Part shown: piece by piece, positions 14,363 to 50,200 of the stretch | Position numbering within the stretch: position 1 is the first letter of the stretch | Layout of the letters: each line of letters starts with the position of its first letter | Assembly: GCF_964355755.1 (NCBI RefSeq) | Contig: NC_092672.1 | Location: 1,364,001-1,428,000, forward strand | Length of the DNA: 64,000 nt | From: Antedon mediterranea | Taxonomy: Eukaryota; Echinodermata; Crinoidea; Comatulida; Antedonidae | Reading direction: 5' to 3' | Notes under the pieces: generated by a model | Databases searched by the model: none | What the model was told of the DNA's origin: nothing | What the model saw: the letters and a program-made list of their open reading frames with translations, nothing else | Position numbers and translations under genes: made by a program

Positions 14363-16867
14363 TTTCGCAACAATGATTCCTTTGTTGGATATCGAAATCT
14401 GACTTGATCGACAATTGAAATGTGGCTCCTTGTCCATTTTTGTAGGAACTACTGTATGTAGAAATTTGGTTCATTCGTAACTAAACACACACGGGAATGG
14501 TTCGGTTGGATAAAAATTGTTAATCGGAAAGAAATTAATAATATTTCGGCAAATATTGTTCGCTCCTTGTTTCTTACTTTCACCGTCAAAGTGGCCAAAA
14601 TAACTAACTTTCGATGTGGAATTAACTAAAGCATAACTTAAAGTAAAGTAAGCTTAATCCCTCACAGAGTACGTCGTATTTTTTTTTAGAAAAACCAGAA
14701 AGAAAATGTTTATAGAATCTACTGGTCCAGCATGGTTCCGGTGGTCCGCCGCAGACAAATCGAACATGAATGTTTCGTTTTCACATAGACGCGTGAAAAT
14801 GAAACATTCGATTTCATTTTCCGGCGCCGAACAGGCGTGCAAAACCCTTAGTTCAGAGAAAGACGAGTAACCTTTGTACATGTATCATGAAAGGAATACT
14901 TCATATAAATTACAACATTCCATATAACACTATTACGATTTAATTATGTATACATCACCGCGTAATAAAGAGACAAGCGTTTGTTGTCAAATATCTAAAG
15001 GGTACCACTTTCTACAATTGTCACGTTTTATTTAGCTTTTTTTTTTTTTTTTGTATCTCCATAAGTGAAAAGATAATTGATATGTTATTGTTGAAGGCCT
15101 ACATACTTGATATAACGTTAAGTCATTACATGGGCATCAATTATTATGAGACCCATTAAGAATCATGGGTTTTATCTGACTGGCTGTGAATCGTTTATGC
15201 AGCAGCAATTTCAATTACATATTTTCCCCCAGAAATGTCTCTTCATGAAACCAAACCTTGTTTTTATATGATTTTAATGGATTCAGTGCATTCGTCAATA
15301 AATAATAATCTAGGTCTCTCACGCAATCTTCAAAGTACAACTAGCATAAAAGAAGATAGTACATTAACTTTATTAACTAACACATGACCGACAAAAACAG
15401 ATATTAATCTCCATAAAAATGTGAATCTAGATTGTGACGTAACATCTAGAATTTGTGACGACACTTTTCCATTTTTGCTGTTTCTTTATAATGATTGGTT
15501 CTCATAAGATGCAACGCAAGAACGTTCTACGCAAGAGATTTGACCAATCACAAGCGACAGTTTGAATGATCCGTCGCCTGTGATTAGTCACAATACTTCG
15601 GCTTACATCCTTGCGTACGTTATAGTGTAAACCAATGGGAAAACAGCAGCGCGTACGGTAATTCTCAAAAATCGTGTTTTTGTTTTTAACAACTATGAGA
15701 GAACCCGAATTATAATATTGTGAATAGGCCTTTAATTATTTGTAGCTTTATTCTTTATATCTGAAGTTTGGTGGTTTTTGGAAAAATGTATAAATTCTAA
15801 CGGTTTCAATTTTATCCTAATTAATTGTGTGATAATATTTAATAAATGCATAAAGTATTCTGTTTTTAATAAATTTTATTTTCTTATCGGTAAAACATTT
15901 CTGTATAACAGACACACATATGGGATAGGCCGAATATGTTTTTATGATGAATTGTTATTTAGGCCTACTAAACAATTTCTAGTATCATTAAGGAGAGGAT
16001 AAAATCAGTAACTAATGAAAGTTATTCTATATAAGGAAATTGTGTATCTAAATTTGGTGAGGTGATTGGGCTTACAGTAAGGTGTTGGCGGCCGCATCTG
16101 CCCGCGCTCTCCACCTCCTCTGTGAATCCATCATAATCTTAATGGCACAATACATACGCTCCTTCCATAAAAGGTTGCACCAACACATACATTTTGTTTA
16201 TATTTTTCTATAACAACAACATCGACAACCAAGAGCTTGTGTATCACTCTCTAATACAAATTGATCCAATGATCGACAAATCTCACGGATTTTCAATACA
16301 CTCAATTCACACCATTTCATTATTAATTTGCCGTCGTTTATGGACGCGCTCTAACCCTACAAAAGATGTAATACCACGTGTATACGGCGGTGCCTTTTAT
16401 GTCTTTTCGTATGACAATTACCTGTAAATAGACGAGGAAAAGTGCGTTAAGTGGTGAACGCTCCTAAAATGTAAGATAGATACACATAGGATGATTTAAG
16501 AGAGGCATCCAAGGACACTATACGCGTAAACCAATGATAACGGTTACCACGAATAAAGGTGAATTGTTTTGATGATGATCCAAAAAATCTTCATCTACTC
16601 CCCGCGAATGCTGCGTCTAGTTCTTACGCTTAGTAAATTGTTGCGTAATAAAACAATTACATTCTAGCTATACCCTCAACAACAACCTAATCAGTTTACG
16701 TAAATAAAAAGAAACAATGCAAGTACTCCATTGTGTGTGTATTAAACGTGTACCACTGAACGTCTACATGTAAATGTATCATGACGTCATTGAAGATGAC
16801 GTCATATATTATTCTATTACAATTATTTATATTTTGGGTTCTATAGTTTTCAGTATTCAATTTTTGT

Positions 16868-17130
16868 GTATCATTATTTCCAAAAAAATTGAATTATTAT
16901 TTATATAAACGAAGTGTAAAAACTCCCTCATTCGCGCATACAATAATTCGGATTTGGATGTGGGTCCTCTATGGATAACGGACCTTATGGTGTAGTATTG
17001 ACGTTCGTACTCATAATTCTGCTATCATACTTCACATCTTATCCTTTGTGTATCATTATTTAAAAAAAAATTGAATTATTATTTATATAAACGAAGTGTA
17101 AAAACTCCCTCATTCGCGCATACAATAATT
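16868..17130. repeat. 182-bp direct repeat units flanking the element array (empty site)
   Basis: A unit beginning CGGATTTGGATGTGGGTCC and ending CGCGCATACAATAATT occupies 16949-17130. The end of a preceding copy lies at about 16868-16948, and a third copy starts at 28283 after the 11-kb array. At 16948/16949 the junction AATT|CGG is uninterrupted. At 17130 and 28283 the same junction is split by the array. The intact junction therefore serves as a paralogous empty site defining the insertion. Confidence 0.85.
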
Positions 17131-17188
17131 AGGTTATATGCATTATCATGCATATAACCTCTTGATTCTGTCAAAATCTTTATTTATT
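17131..17188 (+). mobile_element. Family B 5' terminus fragment
   Basis: Palindrome with 13-base arms (AGGTTATATGCAT and its complement, 17131-17160), followed by a CTCTTGATTCTGTCAAAATC-type segment and a short TTTA run. The same sequence heads unit B1 at 25359. Here it is cut off within the TTTA run by a family A 5' palindrome. Confidence 0.7.
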
Positions 17189-17272
17189 GGTTATCCGCCT
17201 CAAGCGGATAACCTTTGTTATTGTAGTGTTTCTTTTTTTTTTTTATTGGTTATCCGCCTCAAGCGGATAAGC
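17189..17272 (+). mobile_element. Two stacked family A 5' palindromes
   Basis: GGTTATCCGC-ctcaa-GCGGATAACC at 17189-17213 and a near copy at 17248-17272. Each is followed by CTTGTTATTGTAGTGTT and a T run. Only the second leads into an element body. Stacked 5' ends without bodies suggest repeated insertion at, or aborted copying from, the 5' end. Confidence 0.7.
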
Positions 17273-17402
17273 TCTTGTTATTGTAGTGTTACTTTTTTTT
17301 TTTTTTTTTATTATTCTTCTTTCTTTCTTAGATTTTGTGCACACGTTTTCTCTTCAACGTGTTAACATAACATGTTGTAACTTGGTCAACATTTAGACAT
17401 TT

Positions 17403-18290
17403 GAATGAATGAATGTTGTATAGTAAAATATGCAGATGACACAGTCATCACTGGATACATTACTGGCAATGATGAAACAAGCTATAGACAACTAGGATGT
17501 GATTTTTATCACTGGTGCTGCAATAACAACCTGAAACTAAACATAAAGAAAACAAAAGAAATGCAAATTGATTTTAGGAAAATTAAAGAACCCTTAGAAC
17601 CTCTGATTATAAATGAAAATGAGATTGAAGTAGTAAATGAGTACAAATATCTGGGTTGTATAATTGACAATAAGCTAAATTGGATAAATAATGTAAATAA
17701 AGCCACATGCAAAGCCAACCAAAGGATGTTTATTTTAAGAAAAATGAAGTACCTACAAATTGACAAAACTATACTTAAATTGTTTTATAACTCTGTAATT
17801 CTCAGTGTAATACTTTTTTGTAATGTTTGTTTTTATGGTAATACAATGCAAAAAGATAAAATTAAACTTAATCGAATAGGAAATAGAGCAATTAGACTAG
17901 TAGGAGAGCACTTACCTGATGTTGAATCCTTGTATAAAGAAAATGTGTTAAAAAAAGTAAAAAGTATCATTGATGATGAAACACATCCTCTTCACAAACA
18001 ATTTGCTCTCATGAATTCTGGCATAAGACTACGTGCACTTAATACCAAAACAAAACGGTTTAGGTGCTCGTTTGTACCTAATGCTATACACTTATATAAC
18101 TCCAGAGTACAAAGGTAAAATGTAACCGATAATTTTTATCTAATTTTAACAATTTTTAGCCTCTTAACTTTTTGTGTGTGTTCTTGTAAATTGTATTTTA
18201 TATTTTTGTATTTTGCCAGTTTTCAAATCACATTTCTGTTTTTTAAATGGACAATAAAGTATATATGACTATGACTATGACTATGACTTT
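17403..18290 (+). mobile_element. 5'-truncated LINE (non-LTR retrotransposon)
   Basis: The insert begins inside the reverse-transcriptase gene and ends in an (ATGACT)n tail at about 18265-18288, typical of target-primed insertion. Host sequence resumes as TTTAACTGAAGATG, matching the other family A copies. Any target duplication is no more than 2-4 T-rich bases and cannot be set by eye. It is younger than the family A unit that hosts it. Confidence 0.85.
17405..18118 (+). pseudogene. LINE reverse transcriptase, C-terminal fragment
   Basis: A 237-residue open frame. Near its start it has VKYADDTVITG, the catalytic YADD box of reverse transcriptase (domain C). It continues with a LNIKKTKEM motif, then NEYKYLGCIIDNKLNW, then the thumb-like region with LRKMKYL and LKLFYNSVILSVI. 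The order and spacing are those of jockey/CR1/L2-like non-LTR elements; I cannot place the clade. Fingers, upstream palm and endonuclease are missing, so it is a dead fragment although its own frame is intact. The Met at 17405 is not a natural start. Confidence 0.85.
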
Positions 18291-19520
18291 AACTGAAGAT
18301 GTTCAGCCAAGCTTTTGGACGCTGTCAGATCCGCGTAGCGTAAGTCACGCGCGATTTTCTGAAAATCTTAAATCGGTCATAACTTCGAAACCGATAAATA
18401 TTTTTTAACGGAATTTTGTCCACGTTTTCTTCACATCAATGGCTAACTTTTGGAATGTTTAACACATTTTTGGAGACTAGAAAGTTTTCGCGTAAATTGC
18501 GTTTGAAATATTTTACTCTTCTTATTTTGTGCACGCTGTTTCTCTTCAACGTGTACACATAATATGTTGTAACTTGTTCAGCATTTAGACATTTTACTGA
18601 AGTTGTCCAGCCAAGCTTTTTGACGATGTCAGAGCCGCGTAGCGTAAGTTACGCATGATTTTCTGAAAATCTTAAATCGGTTATAACTTCGAAACAATTG
18701 AATATTTTTTAACGTCATTTTTAGCCACGTTTGCTTCACATCAATAGTTAACTTTTTTAACGCTACCGCAATTTGTAACATTAGAAAGTGCGCGCGTAAA
18801 CGGCGTTTGAAATTTTAAAATGCTTCAAATCAATTTCTGATTAAATTAGAGCACGATTCAGGTCATTTTAAGCGTTTAAAAAATTGCCACTGGTGCGCAC
18901 ATTTTTACGCGCGCACGGCGCAGGGAACACGTATGAGCATTTCTTTTACACGAGTTGTGTTTTTAAATCTTCGGTTAACAATTTAACGTTATTTTATTCA
19001 CTTTTCAACTTGAAATGGCGTTCTACGAGCACGTTAAACATGACAGGTTGCGCACAAAAACGTCAACAAATTGTGAAAATGTTCCAAAATATGTATACTT
19101 TTAAAAATGAAACAGTTCATCAGAATGCAAGGTTACCCTCATTTTTTATTTTAATTTCTTGCAGTGTATTAATCATAGCTCTGATTTATTATAGTCTTGA
19201 ATGTTAAAAAGTGTTTGATGGCTACATTATTTGCATATTAAATGTAATTTTTGAAATAATTATCATCAAACAAGCATAAACATATTCAAAGAGTAAAACA
19301 ATAAACATAACGTTTATTTTTTTTCTTTACATGTTAATATATAAAACTTGAAAGTATGCACTTTCATAATATGTCACTGTTTAAAATTTGTGAAGATTTC
19401 ATCATAGTAAAAATTATGATTTAAGTTGATTATGTAATAATCAACTTGCATCGAGTGGGTTCACGACATACCAAATGAACGAGGACTCTTTCTTCGGATT
19501 TTCTTCAGCAGGTGCTCATA

Positions 19521-19590
19521 TGGCTGGATGTGTAGTGCACCCGACTTTGGTATCAGAGGTACCGGGTTCGAATCCCATAATGGGAAAACA
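19521..19590 (+). ncRNA. tRNA-like segment in unit A1
   Basis: Box A-like TGGCTGGATGTGTAGTG, an anticodon-arm-like CGACTTTGGTATCAGA, then box B GGGTTCGAATCCC. The order and spacing follow a tRNA, closest in wording to tRNA-Arg, but stems do not fold cleanly and there is no acceptor stem. I read it as a tRNA-derived pol III promoter module, not a functional tRNA. Confidence 0.5.
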
Positions 19591-19756
19591 ATTAATTAAA
19601 AGGATTTATTTGGTTATTACACTGAAAGGGCAGTTTTAATTTTGAATAGGCTACTATTTGGAAAAATCACAACTGAAAAGTACTTGAATGCGCAAGATAC
19701 GTTTTGTTGCTGGCGGATAACCAAACTCGTCCTCAAGTGACGAGTTTAAGTTCTAG

Positions 19757-19899
19757 TTGGTTATCCGCCTCAAGCGGATAAGCCCTTGGAATTGTAGTGT
19801 TTCTTTTTGGTTATCCGCACTTGGCGGATAACCCCTTGTTATTGTCAGGATCTTTTTGGTTATCCGCACTTGGCGGATAACCCCTTGTTATTGTCAGGA

Positions 19900-19940
<41 letters not shown>

Positions 19941-21084
19941 CTTTATTCTTCTTTCTTTCCACGAATTTTGTTCGCAGCGTATCTCTAATTCTAGCCAACA
20001 TATAATTCTATAACTTTGTTATAAGATTTGCCTGGATCTGTAGATGTGCATGACATTTTTTTTTTCGAATTTTGAGACGCGCAGCGTAAGTTACGCGCAA
20101 TTATATGAATTTCAATGATTGATCATAGATTAAAAACTAAAAGTCATTTTGTATTGAAACTCTGTGAAAATTTAAGTCATATCATGCGCAAACTTTCTAT
20201 GGATTAAAAATGGCATGTTTCACATAAAGTTAAGCGCGCACGCGCGTTTAAAATTTCAAAATGCGTAAAATTAATTTCTAATCAACTTTCTACGCGTTTC
20301 AGGTCATTTTGAACATTTCAAAAATTCCCACGCGTGCGCAATTTTTTTACGCGCGCGTGCGCACTTAGCGCAAAAACATAAATTTTTTGCTTGATTTTTG
20401 TTTTTTCAGCCTTTTCTAGTAAATTTACCAATTTTCAATCAATTTCGACTTAAAATCACGTCATACGAGCACGTAGAATTGAACAATTTGCGCGCGTTTT
20501 TTATGAAAAAGTTCAAAAATTTGTCAAAATTATGCCTTTTTTAAAACAGTCATAGATTCTAAACTCCGTGGGGAACTTCTTTAAAATTTCAGATTCCGGA
20601 AGTAGATGAGTTGTGGATAACAAATCATGCATCGATATGGCTAACCGGACATTGTGACGTCATCGTATGGCCACTCGAATATAAAATATAGGATTTTTCT
20701 CTCTTTCGCATAGCTCATCACATTTAATAGAGCGCATCTCCACTTATCCGTATTCCATTTCTCACCATTTTGTTATATTGTCTAGGCCAATCAATTATCT
20801 TTCGCATAATCTACCATTTTTTAAATTGTGATGACGTCATCATGTTCAAATGCGTCAATAACTTTGGTCACTTATTTTCACCTATTCTGCACTGTATGTA
20901 GTACGTATACAGTATATAGTGTATACCGTACACACTTAGACGCGACACAAAATAGAGGGCTCACTAACATTTTTTTAATGGCATAATCGTTTTTCTGCGC
21001 GCAATATTCTAACTTAGGTGTCATGCGCGTGGGTTTTGCGAGGCGGATAACCTAACTCGTCCGTAGTGACGAGTTCAAATCTAG
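19757..21084 (+). mobile_element. Family C unit C1 with three stacked 5' palindromes
   Basis: The unit starts with 5' palindromes at 19759-19783, 19809-19833 and 19858-19882, the last two with the variant loop acttg, then a run of 39 T (19902-19940). The body (TTCGCAGCGTATCTCTAATTC ..., GACGCGCAGCGTAAG) differs from family A but keeps the shared core (CAAAAATTCCCACGCGTGCG, ATACGAGCACGTAGAATTG). It ends with GCGGATAACC, the hairpin AACTCGTC/GACGAGTT and CTAG at 21081-21084. No tRNA-like segment was found in this family. Confidence 0.65.
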
Positions 21085-22230
21085 TTCTATGTTCTTCTTT
21101 CTTTCCACGATTTTTGTTCGCAGCGTATCTCTAATTCTGGCCACCATATGATTGTATAACTTTGTCAAAAGGTTGCTCTGTAGCTGTAGATGTGCAAGAA
21201 ACTTCTTTTTTTAAATTTTAAGTCGCGCAGCGTAAGTTACGCGCGATTTTATGAATTTCAATGATTGATCATAGATTAAAAACGAAAAGTCATTTTCTAT
21301 TGAAACTTGGTGAAAATTTAAGTCATATCATGCGCAAACTTTCTATGGATTAAAAATGGCATGTTTTACAAAAAGTTACGCGCGCACGCGCGTTTAAAAT
21401 TTCAAAATGCGAAAAATCAATTTCTAATCAACTTTCTACGCGTTTCATGTCATTTTGAGCATTTCAAAAATTCCCACGCGTGCGCAATTTTTTTACGCGC
21501 ACGTGCGCACGTAGCGCAAAAACATCATTTTTTTGCTTGATTTTTGTTTTTCCTGTCTTTTTTAGAAAATTTACCAACTTTCAAACAATTTCGACTTAAA
21601 ATCACGTCATACGAGCACGTAGAATTAAACAATTTACGCTCATTTTTGATGAAAAAGTTCAAAAATTTGTCAAAATTATACATTTTTTAAAACAGTCATA
21701 GATTGTAAACTACGAGGTAAACTTTTTTTAAATTACACATTCTGGAAGTTGATGAGATGTAGATATCGAATCATGCATTGATATGGCTAACCGGACATTG
21801 TGACGTCATCGTATGGCCACTCGAATATGAAATATAGGATTTTTGACTCTTTCGTCATAGCTTGTCACATTTAACAAAGCGCATCTCCACTTATCCGTAT
21901 TCCATTTCCCCAATTTTGTTATATTGTCTAATTCAATCAATTATCTTTCGCATAATCTACCATTTTTAAAATTGTGATGACGTCATCATGTCCAAAATCG
22001 TCAATAACTTTGGTCCCTTATTTTCACTTATTCTGCACTGTATGTAGTACGTATACAGAATATAGTGTATATACCGTATATACTTTGACGTGACGCAAAA
22101 TTGAGAGCACACTAACATTATTTCAATGGCGTAATCGTATTTCTGCGCGCAGTATTCTAACGTATGACGTGCACGTGGCATTTGCGCTGCGGATAACCTA
22201 ACTCGTCCGTAGTGACGAGTTCAAATCTAG
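21085..22230 (+). mobile_element. Family C unit C2
   Basis: A second copy of the family C body directly after the CTAG of C1, without a 5' palindrome, ending at CTAG 22227-22230. It aligns with C1 over its length with scattered substitutions, including the paired phrases CTAACCGGACATTGTGACG and TACGAGCACGTAGAATT. Confidence 0.65.
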
Positions 22231-23796
22231 TTTTTTATTATTATTCTTTCTTTCCGCCACTTTTTGTACGCGACGTTTCTCTGCAACGTGTTAACATAAC
22301 ATGTTGTAACTTGGTAAACATTTAGAAATTTAACTGAAGATGTGCAGCCAAGCTTTTGGACGCTGTCAGATCCGCGTAGCGTAAGTTACGCGCAATTTTC
22401 TGAAAATCTTAAATTGATCATAACTTCGAAACCGATAAATATTTTTTAACGTAACTTGCAGCCACGTTTTCTTCACATCAATGGCTAACTTTTTCAATCT
22501 TTAGCACATTTTTGGAGACTAGAAAGTTTGCGCGTAAATTGCGTTTGAAATTTTAAAATGCTCCAAATTTGTACACGCTGTTTCTCTGCAACGCGTGAAC
22601 ATAACATGTTGTAACTTGGTCAACATATAGACATTTAACTGAAGATGTGCAGCCAAGCTTTTGGACGCTGTATGATGCGCTTATCGTAAGTTACGCGTGA
22701 TTTTCTGAAAATCTTAAATTGAACATAACTTTGAAACAGATAAATATTTTTTAACGTAACTTTCAGCTACGTTTGCTTTACATTAATTGTTAACTTTTTT
22801 ATCCCTACCGAATTTTGTAACATTAGAAAGTGCGTGCGTAAACGGCGTTTGAAATTTTAAAACGCTTCAAATCAATTTCTGATTAAATTAGAGCACGTTT
22901 CAAGTCATTTTAAGGGTTTAAAAATTGCCACTGGTGCGCACTTTTTTACGCGCGCACGTCGCAGGGAACGCGTATGAGCTTTTCTTTTACATAAATTGTG
23001 TTTTTCAAACTTAGGTTAACAATTTTACGTTATTTTATTCACTTTTCAACTTGAAATGGCGTTCTACGAGCACGTTAAACATGACTGGTTGCGCACGAAA
23101 AAGTCAACAAATTGTGAAAATGTTGCAAAATATGTCTACTTTTAAAAGTGATACAGTTCATCAGAATGCAAGGTTACCCCCATTTTTTATTTTATTTTAT
23201 TACAGTCTATGAATTGTAGGTCTGATTTATTATAGTGTTGAATGTTAAAATGTGTTTGATTGCTACATTATTTGCATATTAAATATAATTTTCGAAATTT
23301 TTATCATCAAACAAACAATAACATATTCAAAGAGCAAAACAATAAACATAACGTTTATCTTTTTTCTTTACATGTTGATATATAAAACTTGAAAGTATGC
23401 ACTTTGCTAATATGTCAGTGTTTAAAATTTGTGAAGATTTCATCATAGTAAAAATTATGATTTAGTTTGATAAGTAATAATCTGTTTGCATCGAGTGGTT
23501 CACGACATACCGAATGAACGAGTAAACTTTCGTCGGATTTTCTTCAGCAGGTGCGCATATGGCTCGATGTGTAGTGCCACCGACTTTGGTATCAGAGGTA
23601 CCGGGATCGAGTCCCGTCACGGGAAAACAATTTAGTAAAAGGATTTATTTGGTTGTTACACTGAAAAGGCAGTTTTAATTTCGAATAGGCTACTTTTTGG
23701 AAAAGCCATAACTGAAAAGTACTTGAATGCGCACAAGATACGTTTTGTTGCGGGCGGATAACCAAACTCGTCCTAAAGTGACGAGTTCAGATCTAG
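22231..23796 (+). mobile_element. Family A unit A2
   Basis: It starts at TTATTATTATTCTTTC and carries two copies of the roughly 300-base module, the conserved core, a tRNA-like segment at 23560-23632, then GCGGATAACC, the 3' hairpin and CTAG at 23793-23796. No 5' palindrome separates it from the preceding unit. Confidence 0.65.
23560..23632 (+). ncRNA. tRNA-like segment in unit A2
   Basis: TGGCTCGATGTGTAGTGCC (box A-like), CGACTTTGGTATCAGAGG, then GGGATCGAGTCCCGTCACGG (box B-like). Box B keeps the GATCGAGTCCC pattern and could pair as a T arm. Same interpretation as in A1. Confidence 0.5.
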
Positions 23797-25356
23797 TTAT
23801 TCTTCTTTCTTTCCGCCACTTTTGTTCGCGACGTTTCTCTTCAACGTGTTAACATAACATGTTGTAACTTGGTCAACATTTAGACATTTAACTGAAGTTG
23901 TGCAGCCAAGCTTTTGGACGCTGTCAGATACGCGTAGCGTAAGTTACGCGCGATTTTCTGAAAATCTTAAATCGGTCATAACTTCAAAACCGATAAATAT
24001 TTTTTAACGAAGTTTTCAGCCACGTTTTCTTCACATCAATGGCTAACTTTTTCGATCTCTACCAAATTTTTTGAGACTAGAAAATTTTCGCGTAAATTGC
24101 GTTTGAAATTTCAAAATTCTCCAAATTTGTACACGCTGTTTCTCTGCAACGCGTTAACATAACATGTTGTAACTTGGTCAACATTTTGACATCTAACTGA
24201 AATTGTGCAGCCAAGCTTTTGGACGCTGTCAGAGGCGCGTATCGTAAGTTACGCGCGATTTTCTGAAAATCTTAAATTGATCATAACTTTGAAACAGATA
24301 AATATTTTTTAACGTAATTTTCAGCCACGTTTGCTTCACATCAATTGTTAACTTTTTTAACCCTAACGAATTTTGTAACATTTGAAAGTGCGCGCGTAAA
24401 CGACGTTTGAAATTTAAAAATGCTTGAAATTAATTTCTGATTAAATTAGAGCACGATTCAGGTCATTTTAAGCGTTTAAAAAATTGCCACTGGTGCGCAC
24501 ATTTTTACGCGCGCACGGCGCAGGAAACGCGTATGAGCATTTCTTTTACACGATTTATGTTTTTAAATCTTTGGTTAACAATTTTACGTTATTTTATTCA
24601 CTATTCAACTTGAAATGGCGTTCTACGAGCACGTTAAACATGACTGGTTGCGCAGAAAAACGTCAAAAAATTGTGAAAATGTTGCAAAATATGTCTACTT
24701 TTAAAAAAGATACAGTTCATCAGAATGCAAGGTTACCCCTATTTTTTATTTTTATTTCTTGCAGTTTATGAATCATAGATCTGATTTATAATAATTTTTA
24801 ATGTTAAAACGTGTTTGCTGGCTACACTATTTGCATATTAAATATAATTTTGGAAATTGTTATCATCAAACAAACGATAACATTTTCAAAGAGCAAAACA
24901 ATAGACATAACTGTTATATTTTTTCTTCACATGTTAATATATAAAACTTGAAAGTATGCTCTTTCATAATATGTCACTGTTTAAAATTTATGAAGATTTC
25001 ATCATAGTAAAAATTATGATTTAGTTCGATATGTAATAATCAACTTGCATCGAGGGAGTTCACGACATACCGAACGAACGAGTAATCTTTCTTCGGATTA
25101 TCTGCGGCAGGTGCTCATATGACTCGATGTGTAGTGCAACCGACTTTGGTATCAGAGGTACCGGGTTCGAGTCCCGTCACGGGAAAACAATTAAATATAA
25201 GGATTTATTTGGTTGTTACACTGAAAAGGCAGTTTTAATTTCGAATAGGCTACTTTTTTGGAAAAGCCAAAAACTGAAAAGTACTTGAATGCTCAAGATA
25301 TGTTTTGTTGCGGGCGGATAACCAAACTCGTCCTCAAGTGACGAGTTCAGATCTAG
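23797..25356 (+). mobile_element. Family A unit A3
   Basis: It starts TTATTCTTCTTTCTTTCCGC directly after the CTAG of A2. Two modules, conserved core, tRNA-like segment at 25120-25190, GCGGATAACC, hairpin, CTAG at 25353-25356. The closest relative in the window is A2. Confidence 0.65.
25120..25190 (+). ncRNA. tRNA-like segment in unit A3
   Basis: TGACTCGATGTGTAGTGCA (box A changed at one base), CGACTTTGGTATCAGAGG, then GGGTTCGAGTCCCGTCACGG (consensus box B). It is the best preserved B box of the five tRNA-like segments. Confidence 0.5.
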
Positions 25357-25406
25357 TTAGGTTATATGCATGATATGCATATAACCTCTTGATTCTGTCA
25401 AAATCT

Positions 25407-25457
<51 letters not shown>

Positions 25458-26866
25458 TTCTTTCCTTAGCACTATTTGTCCGTCAATTATCTTGGCATCG
25501 GTTTTATCTATCTAAGTCAATTTTTCAGAGTATATTCCTTATGGCCAGGAATCGATGTGGTTATGTTTTCACGGTGCGCAATCAAAAATTACGCGGTCTA
25601 CGCGCGACTTAACGAAATCACGTTTGTAATCATATCTTCACAAACATGAATCACTTTTAAACAAAATTTGGTACTCATAAATTTCAGGTCATATTTCATC
25701 ATATGGCAATACAATTACGTGCGTAGCGCATATAACGCATGCGTACGCGCGCTTAAAATGTTGAAAATTGTCAGAATTTATTTTCGATGAAATTAGAGTA
25801 CGTTTCAGGCAATTTTAGGCGTTTAAAAAATTGCCATGAGTGCGCAGATTTTTGCACGCGCACTGCGCGTTATACGTTAATGCGCACTCTTTTTGTCCGA
25901 TTTCGGTTGTACAACCTTTCTTTAATAATATCATCATATTTTATTCACTTTTCAACGCGTAATTGCCTTATACGAGCACGTCAAAAGTGACAGGCTACGC
26001 ACGTGTAAGTTAACAAAATGGTGAAAATATGCTAAATTTTAAAATTAATATAGATCGTCAGAATGCTCGGGAACACATATTTTTTATTTAATTTTCTTGA
26101 AGTGTATGTATCTTATGTATGATTTATTATTAAACTAAGGGAACAAAAGTTGATTAAGCCATAATTAATTGCATATTAAATTAAAAAAAATTCATTTCGA
26201 CAATCAAACAAATTATGACATTTTCTTAGGCCAAAATAACAAACTTAACATTAACTTTCTTCCTTCAAAAGTTCATATATTAAAGTTAAAAGTATATAGT
26301 TTGACAGTGCATCATTTTTGTACATTTTTAGAGATGTCATCATAGTAAAAAATTATAATTCATTGCGGTATGTAATAATCTATCTGCACCAAAGTGGTTA
26401 CTGCATAGTAAATACACGGAGGAATTTTTCTACAATTTTTAGTCAGTTGTGTATGGCTCGGTGGTGTGTGCTCGTGTCTATGGCACTCAAGGTACCGAGA
26501 TCGAGTCTCACCTTGGGAAACGAAATAAATTTTTTTTTTTATTATCCGTATTGTTTGTTCAAATTTATTTCTTAGTGTATATATTATACACATGATTTAT
26601 AATGAAATCTAGATAAAAAATAACTTATGTCTTTATTATTATGTAACAGCAAATGTGGTTTATGACATTATACGCAGAGGGATCTTTGATCGGATTGTGA
26701 TACCGGCTATTGTATTCGCGTTAGCAAGGTCCTATCATATATTATATATTATTTAAAGAATCTGAGAAAATCAATGAATCAAAATATCTTTTAAAAATAA
26801 ATTATCTTTATTTTAATTATCAATGCATATAACCTATAATTCGTCATAGTGACGAATTAAATCTAG
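25357..26866 (+). mobile_element. Family B unit B1
   Basis: 5' palindrome with ATGCAT-containing arms at 25359-25387, then a (TTTA)n microsatellite to about 25460. The body has the shared core in divergent form (TTTAAAAAATTGCCATGAGTG, ATACGAGCACGTCAAAAGTG) and a tRNA-like segment at 26453-26520. It ends with ATGCATATAACC, the hairpin AATTCGTC/GACGAATT and CTAG at 26863-26866. Confidence 0.7.
26453..26520 (+). ncRNA. tRNA-like segment in unit B1
   Basis: Box A-like TGGCTCGGTGGTGTGTGC, box B-like GAGATCGAGTCTC and a terminal CACCTTGGG. Divergent from the family A version yet in the same place within the element. Confidence 0.45.
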
Positions 26867-28280
26867 TTTATTTATTCTTTCCTTAGCACTATTTTGTCCG
26901 TGAATTATCTTGATATCAGTTTCATCTATCTAAGTCAATTTTTCAGAGTATATTCCTTATGGCCAGGAATCGATGTGGTTATATTTTCACGATGCGTAAT
27001 CAAAAATTACGCGGTCTACGCGCGATTTTACGAAATCACGTTTGTAATCATATCTTCACAAGCATGAATCACAATTAAACAAAATTTGGTACTCATAAAT
27101 TTCAGGTCATATTTCATCATATGGCAATACAATTACGTGCGTAGCGCATATAACGCTTGCGTACGCGCGCTTAAAATGTTCAAAATTGTCAAAATTTATT
27201 TTCGATGAAATTAGAGTACGTTTCAGGCAATTTTAAGCGTTTAAAAAATTGCCATGAGTGCGCAGATTTTTGCACGCGCACTGCGCGTTATACGTTAATG
27301 CGCACTCTTTTTGTCCGATTTCGGTTGTACAACCTTTCTTTAATAATATCATCATATTTTATTCACTTTTCAACGCGTAATTGCCTTATACGAGCACGTC
27401 AAAAGTGACAGGCTACGCACGTGTAAGTTAACAAAATGGTGAAAATATGCTAAATTTTAAAATTAATATAGATCGTCAGAATGCTCGGGAACACATATTT
27501 TTTATTTCATTTTCTTGAAGTGTATGTATCTTATGTATGATTTATTATTAAACTAAGGGAACAAAAGTTGATTAAGCCATAATTAATTGCATATTAAATT
27601 AAAAAAAATTCATTTCGACAATCAAACAAATTATGACATTTTCTTAGGCCAAAATAACAAACTTAACATTAACTTTCTTCCTTCAAAAGTTCATATATTA
27701 AAGTTAAAAGTATATAGTTTGACAGTGCATCATTTTTGTACATTTTTAGAGATGTCATCATAGTAAAAAATTATAATTCATTGCGGTATGTAATAATCTA
27801 TCTGCACCAAAGTGGTTACTGCATAGTAAATACACGGAGGAATTTTTCTACAATTTTTAGACAGTTGTGTATGGCTCGGTGGTGTGTGCTCGTGTCTATG
27901 GCACTCAAGGTACCGAGATCGAGTCTCACCTTGGGAAACGAAATAAGATTTTCTTTTTATTATCCGTATTGTTTGTTCAAATTTATTTCTTAGTGTATAT
28001 ATTATACACATGATTTATAATGAAATCTAGATAAAAAATAACTTATGTCTTTATTATTATGTAACAGCAAATGTGGTTTATGACATTATACGCAGAGGGA
28101 TCTTTGATCGGATTGTGATACCGGCTATTGTATTCGCGTTAGCAAGGTCCTATCATATATTATAAATAATTAAAGAATCTGAGAAAATCAATGAATCAAA
28201 ATATCTTTTAAAAATCAATTATCTTTATTAAAATCAATGCATATAACCTATAATTCGTCATAGTGACGAATTAAATCTAG
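26867..28280 (+). mobile_element. Family B unit B2, near-identical tandem copy of B1
   Basis: It starts in the TTTA microsatellite (TTTATTTATTCTTTCC) with no 5' palindrome. It then repeats the B1 body almost base for base: I saw only scattered differences, such as a TTTTTTTTTT run shortened near 27950. It ends at CTAG 28277-28280, directly abutting the interrupted 182-bp repeat. Confidence 0.75.
27871..27938 (+). ncRNA. tRNA-like segment in unit B2
   Basis: Identical in wording to the B1 segment: TGGCTCGGTGGTGTGTGC followed by GAGATCGAGTCTC. Confidence 0.45.
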
Positions 28281-28282
28281 TT

Positions 28283-28482
28283 CGGATTTGGATGTGGGTC
28301 CTCTATGGATAACGGACCTTATGGTGAAGTATTGACGTTCGTACTCATAATTCTGCTATCATACTTCACATCTTATCCTTTGTGTATCATTATTTCATAA
28401 AAATTGAATTATTATTTATTAGAAATTAAATTATTATATAAACGAAGTGTTTGTAAAAACGCCCTCATTCGCGCATACAACG
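28283..28482. repeat. Third 182-bp-type unit, right flank of the array
   Basis: It starts CGGATTTGGATGTGGGTCC like 16949 and carries the same text to CATTCGCGCATACAA, with an inserted ATTAGAAATTAAATTATT-like segment in the AT-rich centre. Confidence 0.8.
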
Positions 28483-47200: not shown

Positions 47201-50200
47201 GTACATATATACATATATACATACATATACTGTATACATATACATATATATATACATATATACATACATTTTTTTAGAATACATAAATAACACACATTTT
47301 TTATTAATAATAAATATAAACTTATCTTGCGGAATGAACAACTGTAACCTAGATCTAGTCTTACAAGGATCTGAACATACATTTAGTTTCTAAATTGTTT
47401 AAAATAGAAGTGGGACACTTCTTATTAAGGAGGGGAGGTGTAACCCCAGAAGTTAAGGTCACGCTATAGTTCATAGAGAGAACCTCGTGGGTTGAAGAGG
47501 TGAGATAAATCATGGCGATGTAAAGTGTATAATAACCCAATAGAGGATTAAATTTAAAGAGCTGGATGTTGAGATTGTTTATTGACTACTGTTACACTAC
47601 CACTAATTACGATCACAGGTTACAATATTAATAACAAACCTTTGAATTCTATCCTCTTGTATTTGTGATTTATATTTGAGTATTTCTTCTCTACAGTTCT
47701 GTACCTCTATACGTGTTGCTTCGTAATCCTTCAACTGTTGCTCCGCTGTTTGAAGCTTAAGTGACATGTCATCGACTTCCTGCTGTAACTCTGGAATCTA
47801 TCAATTCATTTGCTTGTTAATGAATATTCATCAGTTTTTTTAATATGGATAATAATAATAATAATAATAATAAATAACATTTATAAAGCGCAAGAGACAA
47901 AGGTTTCAAAGCGCTGTGTTTTCCAAGATCAGTGCAAGTAGTAGCGTGCGATTATGCTTCTCTGAAGAGATGAGTTTTGAGTTTAGTTTTAAATGTGATA
48001 ACAGATTTTGATGAGCGTATTTCGAGTGGTAGAGTGTTCCAGAGTTTTGGGGCTGCGACAGCGAAAGCACGATAATATTCAAGTTTGTATGAAATTATGA
48101 ACATTATTATATCTGTAAGTTGTCAAAACGTCCCTATTAAGCAAGCTTCCCACTACTGACACAACACAAGGAGGTAGATGCAACAAGTGAGTTGACCAAT
48201 GTTTACAAACCTCCCTATTAAGCAAGCTTCCTACTACTGACACAACACAAGGAGGTAGATGCAACAAGTGAGTTGACCAATGTTTACAAACCTCCCTATT
48301 AAGCAAGCTTCCTACTACTGACACAACACAAGGAGGTAGATGCAACAAGTGAGTTGACCAATGTCTACAAACCTCCCTATTAAGCAAGCTTCCTACTACT
48401 GACACAACACAAGGAGGTAGATGCAACAAGTGAGTTGACCAATGTCTACAAACCTCCCTATTAAGCAAGCTTCCTACTACTGACACAACACAAGGAGGTA
48501 GATGCAACAAGTGAGTTGACCAATGTCTACAAACCTCCCTATTAAGCAAGCTTCCCACTACTGACACAACACAAGGAGGTAGATGCAACAAGTGAGTTGA
48601 CCAATGTCTACAAACCTCCCTAAGCAAGCTTCCCACTACTGACACAACACAAGGAGGTAGATGCAACAAGTAAGTTGACCAATGTCTACAAACCTCCCTA
48701 AGCAAGCTTCCCACTACTGACACAACACAAGGAGGTAGATGCAACAAGTGAGTTGACCAATGTCTACAAACCTCCCTATTAAGCAAGCTTCCTACTACTG
48801 ACACAACACAAGGAGGTAGATGCAACAAGTGAGTTGACCAATGTCTACAAACCTCCCTATTAAGCAAGCTTCCCACTACTGACACAACACAAGGAGGTAG
48901 ATGCAACAAGTGAGTTGACCAATGTCTACAAACCTCCCTATTAAGCAAGCTTCCCACTACTGACACAACACAAGGAGGTAGATGCAACAAGTGAGTTGAC
49001 CAATGTCTACAAACCTCCCTATTAAGCAAGCTTCCCACTACTGACACAACACAAGGAGGTAGATGCAACAAGTGAGTTGACCAATGTCTACAAACCTCCC
49101 TAAGCAAGCTTCCCACTACTGACACAACACAAGGAGGTAGATGCAACAAGTAAGTTGACCAATGTCTACAAACCTCCCTAAGCAAGCTTCCCACTACTGA
49201 CACAACACAAGGAGGTAGATGCAACAAGTGAGTTGACCAATGTCTACAAACCTCCCTATTAAGCAAGCTTCCTACTACTGACACAACACAAGGAGGTAGA
49301 TGCAACAAGTAAGTTGACCAATGTTTACAGTATAAATGTTCATTTCAACAAATTTGGCATTATTGGTTGATATTACAGTGGCAGATCCAGGATTTTGAAA
49401 TAGAGAGGCCCAGGGCCTAAAAATGGTGATTGAAGGGCTGAGCTTAATTTGGTGTCCTAGTATCAGCAGCCCTCTTGGATCCGCCCCTGTATTAGGTATA
49501 AGGGAAGTACAACATGTTAGCAGTCGATGGCTAAGTTACAACATTTGACCGGGGGTTTGGAAAAAAAGCTGAAATATGGATTGGCTGGAAGTCCTATCTA
49601 TATCATTATCTGACATACCCGTCTCTCAGCAGATTGTGCTCTGTGTTGAACTTTACCAAGAGCGGTCGATGACACGTTGACCTCTGCTTTGTGACGTTCA
49701 AATTCAGAATCCCTTAGACGAATTGTGTTATTTTGCTGTTTATGTTTAAAGATTAAAGTACAGAATTATCATTTGAATTGAATTGAATTTGTTATATATT
49801 ATTTTTATTATTATATACTGGGTAACCTTTTCAGTCAAAGAATGTACACCGGGGTAACCCACACTCGTCTTGAAAGATGTACTAGGTTCTTTAAAGAACA
49901 TGAGCTAGATATGTACACTGGACCTACAGTTTATAGTACTTACCACCAGATTTTTTTTCTGCTCCATTAATTAGATTTTAACTCGGCTAAATAATTGCTT
50001 TATACTATAAGGACTATAAACCATAGGTTCAGTGTACACAGTAATATTAATTAATAATAACCTGTGTGTACTTTAAAGACCCAGTTCATTATTCGAAAAA
50101 GAGTAGACGGGTCATTCCATCTCAGATCACCCAATGAGTTAAACCCTACCTCTTCCAATTTTGATGAAATTTGGTATATGGGTGATTCATAGCAATTAAA

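Follow-up and report, generated by a model that had tools for sequence, protein, structure and literature searches.

Seven nested Helentron-type units at a single insertion site in the crinoid Antedon mediterranea

How does a cluster of related transposable elements come to occupy a single site? This question is raised by an 11-kb array of Helentron-type units in the genome of the crinoid Antedon mediterranea. The window analysed here is a 64,000-nucleotide stretch of contig NC_092672.1 (C3:1364001-1428000), and all genome searches were made against the 354-Mb assembly of 18 contigs, which are abbreviated C1, C2 and so on. Positions 17131-28280 of the window are occupied by seven nested units of three families. 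An earlier note, made from the letters of the window alone, had both of these counts right and proposed that the units accumulated end to end. We consider it highly probable that the array is instead a stack of non-autonomous Helentrons that grew by repeated self-insertion, wherein later units lie within earlier ones in the order of matched brackets.

Architecture of the array

Each unit consists of a head formed by a 5' palindrome, a T-rich tract and a body, and the body ends with a returned arm of the palindrome, a hairpin and the sequence CTAG. The palindrome, its returned arm, the hairpin and CTAG had been recognized in the earlier note. Units start with AGGTT or GGTT. The head palindrome is AGGTTATATGCAT... 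in family 3 and GGTTATCCGC... in families 1 and 2, and the tract is (TTTA)n in family 3 and poly-T in families 1 and 2. With heads denoted P and bodies denoted B, the order in the window is P3 P1 P1 B1 P1 P2 P2 B2 B2 B1 B1 P3 B3 B3. When written in brackets, as P3( P1( P1(B1) P1( P2( P2(B2) B2) B1) B1) P3(B3) B3), this order closes perfectly.

The seven units, labelled o and a to f, all lie on the forward strand. The outermost unit, o, begins with a palindromic P3 head of subtype a and the left part of its (TTTA)n tract (17131-17188), and resumes with its right tract and B3 body, which ends in CTAG followed by TT|CGG (26867-28280). Its first guest is unit a, divided between a P1 head with left T tract (17189-17247) and a right tract with B1 body and CTAG (23797-25356). 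Unit a contains two guests. One is unit b, whose P1 head, tract and B1 body run to CTAG without Helentron guests (17248-19756), and the other is unit c, whose P1 head and left tract (19759-19808) are parted from its right tract, B1 body and CTAG (22231-23796). Unit c in turn contains unit d (P2 head and left tract, 19809-19857; right tract, B2 body and CTAG, 21085-22230), which contains the uninterrupted unit e with its P2 head, T tract, B2 body and CTAG (19858-21084). The second guest of o is unit f, which is likewise uninterrupted and comprises a P3 head of subtype b, a 54-bp (TTTA)n tract, a B3 body and CTAG (25359-26866).

An empty copy of the insertion site

The host DNA preceding the array (16863-17130, forward strand) consists of two copies of a local repeat of about 182 bp, the first partial (16863-16948) and the second full (16949-17130). 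At the boundary between them, 16948/16949, the junction AATT|CGG is unbroken and represents the empty site. The array splits the same junction into AATT|AGGTT... at 17130/17131 and ...CTAG|TT|CGG at 28280/28283. Both the intact and the split junction are located where the earlier note had placed them. Because the repeat has only local copies, the evidence for this empty paralogue consists of one full copy and one partial one. A genome search (both of two candidates scored) gave three matches, all in the window, which are the repeat itself at 16950-17131, a partial copy of 86 bp that stops at 16948, and a copy at 28284-28480 with 86% identity.

The filled site is two T longer than the empty site, and a duplication of TT looks the same as a T carried by the element. 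Thus, when the units were previously said to target TT and to leave no duplication, the first part stands and the second is indistinguishable from a TT duplication. Among 40 matches to a 3' border query that ended one base past the TT, 37 stop in the TT and three, including the window, stop one base later. This search is weak evidence for the border, and the 21 outer sites of independent copies, described below, are better evidence.

Removal of guests restores host units

When the six guests are removed, each with one TT, unit o becomes a continuous element of 1,470 bp. This restored unit is 99.32-99.73% identical to seven solitary copies, and its alignments to two of them (L004 and L009) are gap-free at 99.73%. 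Removing unit o as well restores the empty site AATT^CGG. Hosts a and c rejoin to 1,617 and 1,614 bp, compared with 1,616-1,618 bp in six contiguous P1-B1 units (89-91% identity), and host d rejoins to 1,193 bp, whereas the only contiguous P2-B2 unit used for comparison measures 1,208 bp. There are also three P3 P3 B3 B3 dimers elsewhere in the genome, in which the first head joined to the second body yields 1,469, 1,470 and 1,474 bp, and these rejoined units are 99.66-99.93% identical to solitary units.

The restoration of host units by de-nesting is the reason that end-to-end accumulation is rejected. Successive arrival of units at a T-rich hotspot would produce a head and its body, then the next head and its body, whereas the heads in the window are piled in front of the bodies. 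Four of the seven units (o, a, c and d) have a head and body separated by later guests; three of these pairs (o, a and c) rejoin to native length within 3 bp, and d is 15 bp short. Moreover, the first head of the array joined to its last body forms an exact solitary unit. Two guests do start immediately after an earlier guest's CTAG TT (at 19759 and 25359), and insertion generally targets TT, but end-to-end arrival has almost no chance of accounting for the array as a whole.

Tract lengths and the target site

The (TTTA)n tract provides a second measure of which head belongs to which body. In contiguous units, tracts behind subtype a heads are 18 or 22 bp long in 14 of 15 cases (the other is 27), and those behind subtype b heads are 30 bp in five of seven (the others are 46 and 54); two further heads have no readable tract. 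When the parts of split tracts are summed according to bracket pairing, with two bases subtracted per guest, 12 of 15 host units return to 18 or 22 (subtype a) or to 30 (subtype b). Twelve fits are reached in 70 of 200,000 trials in which head subtypes are permuted, and in 2,422 of 200,000 in which right tracts are permuted. The stack at C2:12.73M has six P3 heads and, after them, seven B3 bodies; each of its five split units fits, including the one with the sole subtype a head among heads of subtype b. Lengths were entered by hand, and the array at C4:65k, whose outer head subtype has no contiguous reference, was omitted (its tract rejoins to 30).

The earlier note had proposed a search for independent copies that end at CTAG next to T, and such copies were found. 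At their 21 outer sites, the left flank ends in ATT in 18 and TTT in three, and the right flank begins with TT in 18 and with TA, and therefore a single T at the 3' side, in three. Thus, T is present on both sides at all 21 sites. An ATT is available every four bases in a (TTTA)n tract, and in the split family 3 tracts that were read every left and every right part has a length of 2 modulo 4, which a single fixed phase would produce.

Related arrays across the genome

Exact tail patterns occur 1,226 times (family 3 type) and 1,410 times (family 1 and 2 type) in the genome, compared with 0 and 1 for reversed-pattern controls. The corresponding head patterns occur 557 and 914 times (controls 0 and 0), and these are under-counts in that only exact matches are included. 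A tail variant that is one base longer, mostly GTGACGAATTAAATTCTAG, makes up 44 of the first 100 listed family 3 type tails (C1); it is often alone, with known heads not nearby, and perhaps represents a further family. With this variant excluded, 84 of 141 tails in the first 23 Mb of C1 lie in clusters of at least three heads or tails, as delimited by a 25-kb gap limit that may merge neighbours. Arrays with B3 bodies were found via the tail of the outermost unit, by fetching 20 of 40 matches and omitting those near earlier array matches, and further arrays were then chosen from head, tail and cluster searches. The deepest stacks seen are the one at C2:12.73M described above and one at C1:14.50M, where eight consecutive P2 heads open a 69-kb array that was fetched in part; the counts for this array are 14 heads and 15 tails, and it contains three Rep domains.

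Eight of the fetched arrays mix families, and their heads and bodies were typed by hand. Bracket pairing yields type agreement in 38 of 41 pairs, compared with 20 of 41 when heads and bodies are paired as a queue (first in, first out). Among pairs that are not innermost neighbours, 20 of 23 match, whereas the null mean is 12.4 and only 20 of 20,000 shuffles reach 20. The right half of C3:12.46M and a diverged P3-B3 pair that ends C1:12.352M were left out of this test, and in C5:19.6M, C10:15.8M and C10:12.27M the fetched stretch stops within the last body.

Another possibility is that the 11-kb array was built elsewhere and moved here as one composite, bounded by the outer head and outer tail. 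The outer borders do have the form of a perfect Helentron insertion, and other loci contain heads in a similar order (P3 P1 P1 B1). The junctions inside the array argue otherwise. Unit b contains a 5'-truncated long interspersed nuclear element (LINE) at 17408-18287 (forward strand), with a reverse-transcriptase open reading frame (ORF) at 17405-18118, a TATGAC tail and, on either side, a duplication of about 10 bp of B1. The junction of B1 with this LINE is found only here among 40 scored matches. The other 39 cover the LINE part alone, at 99-100% identity; the insertion in unit b therefore looks private and recent, and the LINE family itself looks to have been recently active, to judge from the identity of its scored copies. 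The junction of the B1 tail with P1 and P2 is present in none of the other 39 main scored matches, and short pieces that span a tail-head junction are 68-88% identical, as expected of other units. The array at C4:65k has a similar order with different head and body subtypes. Movement as a composite is therefore improbable, and even if it had occurred, the nesting would have taken place at the donor locus.

One locus pair elsewhere looked at first like a transposed composite. The stretches C1:2888800-2892900 and C1:9004000-9007950 (L049 and L050) are the same sequence present twice, flanks included, at 99.7% identity, which indicates a segmental duplication or an assembly duplicate. Because both flanks are shared at this level, transposition of one composite was rejected for this pair, and it was counted once.

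Balance of heads and bodies

An array was considered complete if the fetched sequence extended at least 170 bp beyond it on both sides and no further head or tail was recognized there. Those that balance exactly are the window (seven heads, seven bodies), C4:65k (4/4), C1:21.65M (5/5) and three 2/2 arrays; at C1:21.65M, a 3.2-kb stretch lies between the third head and the next recognized body.

Several observations weigh against nesting as a full account. Exact balance holds in only six of 13 independent complete arrays, and the others are off by one or two, such that strict balance as a universal rule is rejected. Four arrays have one extra body (three 1/2 and one 7/8), and three have spare heads, including two each at C1:2.889M and C1:10.41M as located by BLAST. 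The three P3 B3 B3 arrays have flanks that are not element sequence, which means that a head is missing. Of the 41 pairs in the mixed arrays, three join a head and a body of different types, and 18 consist of innermost neighbours, which would match under any model. The typed balanced order of the window is obtained by a fraction of 0.0006 of 2,000,000 random orders of its seven heads and seven bodies, but this chance rises to 0.0048 when the head/body skeleton is fixed and to 0.10 when innermost neighbours are forced to match. Thus, the typing of the window alone is only suggestive, and it is the restored units that carry weight.

The tract sums and dimers have exceptions of the same kind. All three misses among the 15 hosts come from the four-deep stack at C5:19.6M, where the tract rejoins to 14 in each case; no contiguous unit has a tract of this length. 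The usual tract classes were fixed after the data had been seen, and units of one array are not independent. The dimer result covers only the pairing of the first head with the second body, and in the dimer at C5:18.48M both heads are of one subtype. In addition, the B3 cluster with the least variation, which comprises 34 of 50 bodies at an average of 0.4% from their consensus, includes the body of unit o, whereas guests can come from more diverged lineages.

Tandem amplification in place, either by rolling-circle bypass of the 3' terminator or by unequal exchange between copies, would explain the P3 B3 B3 and P3 P3 B3 arrays and the uniform 6/10 tracts of the four-deep B3 stack at C5:19.6M. 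There is precedent for this process, since terminator bypass is the explanation given for Helitron clusters in the passages cited from PMC4067079, and those cited from PMC12628747 attribute plant arrays in which many 5' ends accompany one 3' end to the amplification of circles. Amplification gives no reason for the typed mirror pairing of three families, or for tract sums that follow head subtype, and it is very unlikely to be the main origin of the array. Self-insertion is the reading retained below, and there are ways in which a nested stack could lose its balance. Neighbouring family 3 heads form direct repeats of nearly identical sequence at a spacing of mostly 54-75 bp, and slippage could therefore delete one of them. 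Such head loss, or terminator bypass, would unbalance a stack, as would excision of the kind proposed for Fusarium (PMC5148889), which starts at an outer head and stops at the first tail.

Family identity and autonomous partner

The identification of the units as non-autonomous Helentrons of the HINE/DINE-1 type, put forward in the earlier note, is supported by their palindromic starts, their CTAG ends and an autonomous copy with shared heads and tail. The domain Helitron_like_N occurs at 87 places in the genome, and at 39 of these the surrounding open frame has 2,800 codons or more. One autonomous copy on the minus strand of C7 (about 21 kb) opens with three P2 heads and positions 1-1106 of B2, and it carries an antisense frame of 3,093 codons. 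This frame contains Helitron_like_N (2.3e-36), PIF1 (1.1e-28) and OTU (6.6e-11) domains, as well as Exo_endo_phos (7.2e-12) in its C-terminal 198 amino acids. Its N-terminal region also matches Herpes_teg_N (1.1e-08).

A search of about 6 kb past the frame did not reveal the 3' end of this copy. The first tail downstream is found further on, at 21.0 kb from the innermost head; its last 42 bases are those of B2, and it is 80% identical over B2 positions 1004-1137. This tail, seen in one copy, is probably the element's own, which would make the C7 element the full-length Rep/helicase relative with shared termini that the earlier note had suggested seeking. The copy and its tail are flanked by B2 units in the same orientation. 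A tandem array of about ten copies of a 344-bp repeat (approximate length) is located between the frame and the tail (C7:12078500-12085499). A second autonomous copy, at C1:24.45M, starts with P3 P3 P1 P1 and B1, and a search beyond its frame did not find its 3' end.

Two other classes were considered. Canonical Helitrons (Helitron1) have a 5' TC and insert between A and T, whereas the units here start with AGGTT or GGTT and target TT; their 3' CTAG does fit CTRR. A DDE cut-and-paste transposon would have terminal inverted repeats and leave regular target duplications of greater length; it is disfavoured in that the window site gains only TT, although no search for a DDE partner was made.

Comparison with known systems

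HINE/DINE-1 elements and Helentrons are described in the passages cited from PMC4067079 as having a palindromic 5' repeat, a microsatellite, a TT or poly-T target and a partner with Rep, PIF1 and endonuclease domains. The units described here share the 5' palindrome whose arm returns near the 3' end, the 3' hairpin, the microsatellite behind the 5' repeat, insertion at TT and the autonomous partner, and the antisense ORF has its counterpart in the Drosophila ananassae example of the same paper. Those passages credit clusters to terminator bypass and do not describe nesting of elements into their own microsatellite, whereas the array in the window is nested. Lepidopteran Helitron-like elements at (GAAA)n microsatellites, and Hel-2, also have a tetranucleotide repeat behind the 5' repeat and insert into microsatellites (PMC4344730), and nesting into their own repeat is likewise not described in the sections of that paper cited here.

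Self-insertion of such elements has already been published. For FoHeli, a Helitron2 element of Fusarium, it is proposed in the portion of PMC5148889 drawn on here, where one non-autonomous copy is nested in an autonomous one. FoHeli also shares multiple 5' termini with a single 3' terminus and reversed ORF orientation. That portion reports one nested case with heads in excess, whereas there are many deep, often balanced stacks of several families in A. mediterranea, and these, unlike FoHeli as presented there, have a fixed landing tract and hosts that can be restored to the base.

The oyster element Cg_HINE has a left-flank microsatellite and a T-rich target in common with our units, but in the cited part of PMC7492417 it is mostly short monomers that are repeated inside one element, rather than whole units in bracket order. 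According to passages of PMC12628747, parts of oyster elements are inserted within other elements and the loci were 'shuffled' by several processes. The same passages treat plant centromeric Helitron arrays, which resemble the stacks here in their many 5' ends but have one 3' end only and are attributed to the amplification of circles, and Drosophila transposon dimers, which arise from insertion-site preference, as the dimers here may. No description of recursive nesting into an element's own head-body tract was found in the literature searched, which mostly excluded subscription papers. It is the depth and order of the nesting that appear to be new.

A model for stack growth

The autonomous Helentrons of about 21 kb would supply the machinery in trans, and transposition would proceed by a rolling circle. 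An endonuclease would choose TT, and the machinery would join the element at this site, mostly within ATT. Because the (TTTA)n tract offers an ATT site every four bases, new units would land between the head and body of an older unit, or else at the TT behind the CTAG of an earlier guest. Each such landing leaves the host head on the left and the host body on the right, which results in last-in, first-out bracket order with the outermost unit as the first to arrive.

Nesting order should not be equated with family age. A chronology based on family divergence failed, given that guests can stem from diverged lineages. The outer body is homogeneous and guest lineages are diverged, which indicates that several lineages were active together; guest e (B2) has relatives at 99% identity. 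The sequences fit recent movement by several lineages.

Perhaps the tract behind the head, which DINE/HINE elements regularly possess, acts as a built-in landing pad that attracts later copies to a position at which insertion disrupts neither the host nor the guest, although we offer this only as a tentative idea that may well prove wrong. If it is true, then copies of the family accumulate in growing stacks and genes are spared, and the order of a stack is a readable record of insertions. HINE clusters in other animals might then be nests rather than rolling-circle products. Clusters and arrays of Helentrons with several heads are usually put down to missed termination; the model would explain them base by base, and it suggests what the HINE microsatellite may be for. 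Nested loci of this kind would be mistaken for truncated copies or satellites by annotation pipelines in which each head is expected to be paired with a body.

Other features of the window

There is a tRNA-like stretch in the B1 and B3 bodies, at 19500-19590, 23560-23630, 25110-25190, 26450-26520 and 27870-27940, with a motif (GGTTCGAATCC or variants) that resembles box B. The tRNA reading was dropped, since ARAGORN predicted no tRNA and the one Rfam match is far below the gathering score and located elsewhere, in B2. Outside the array, an 81-bp minisatellite of 15 copies is present at 48126-49329, and its minus strand is open as a repetitive frame of 409 amino acids.

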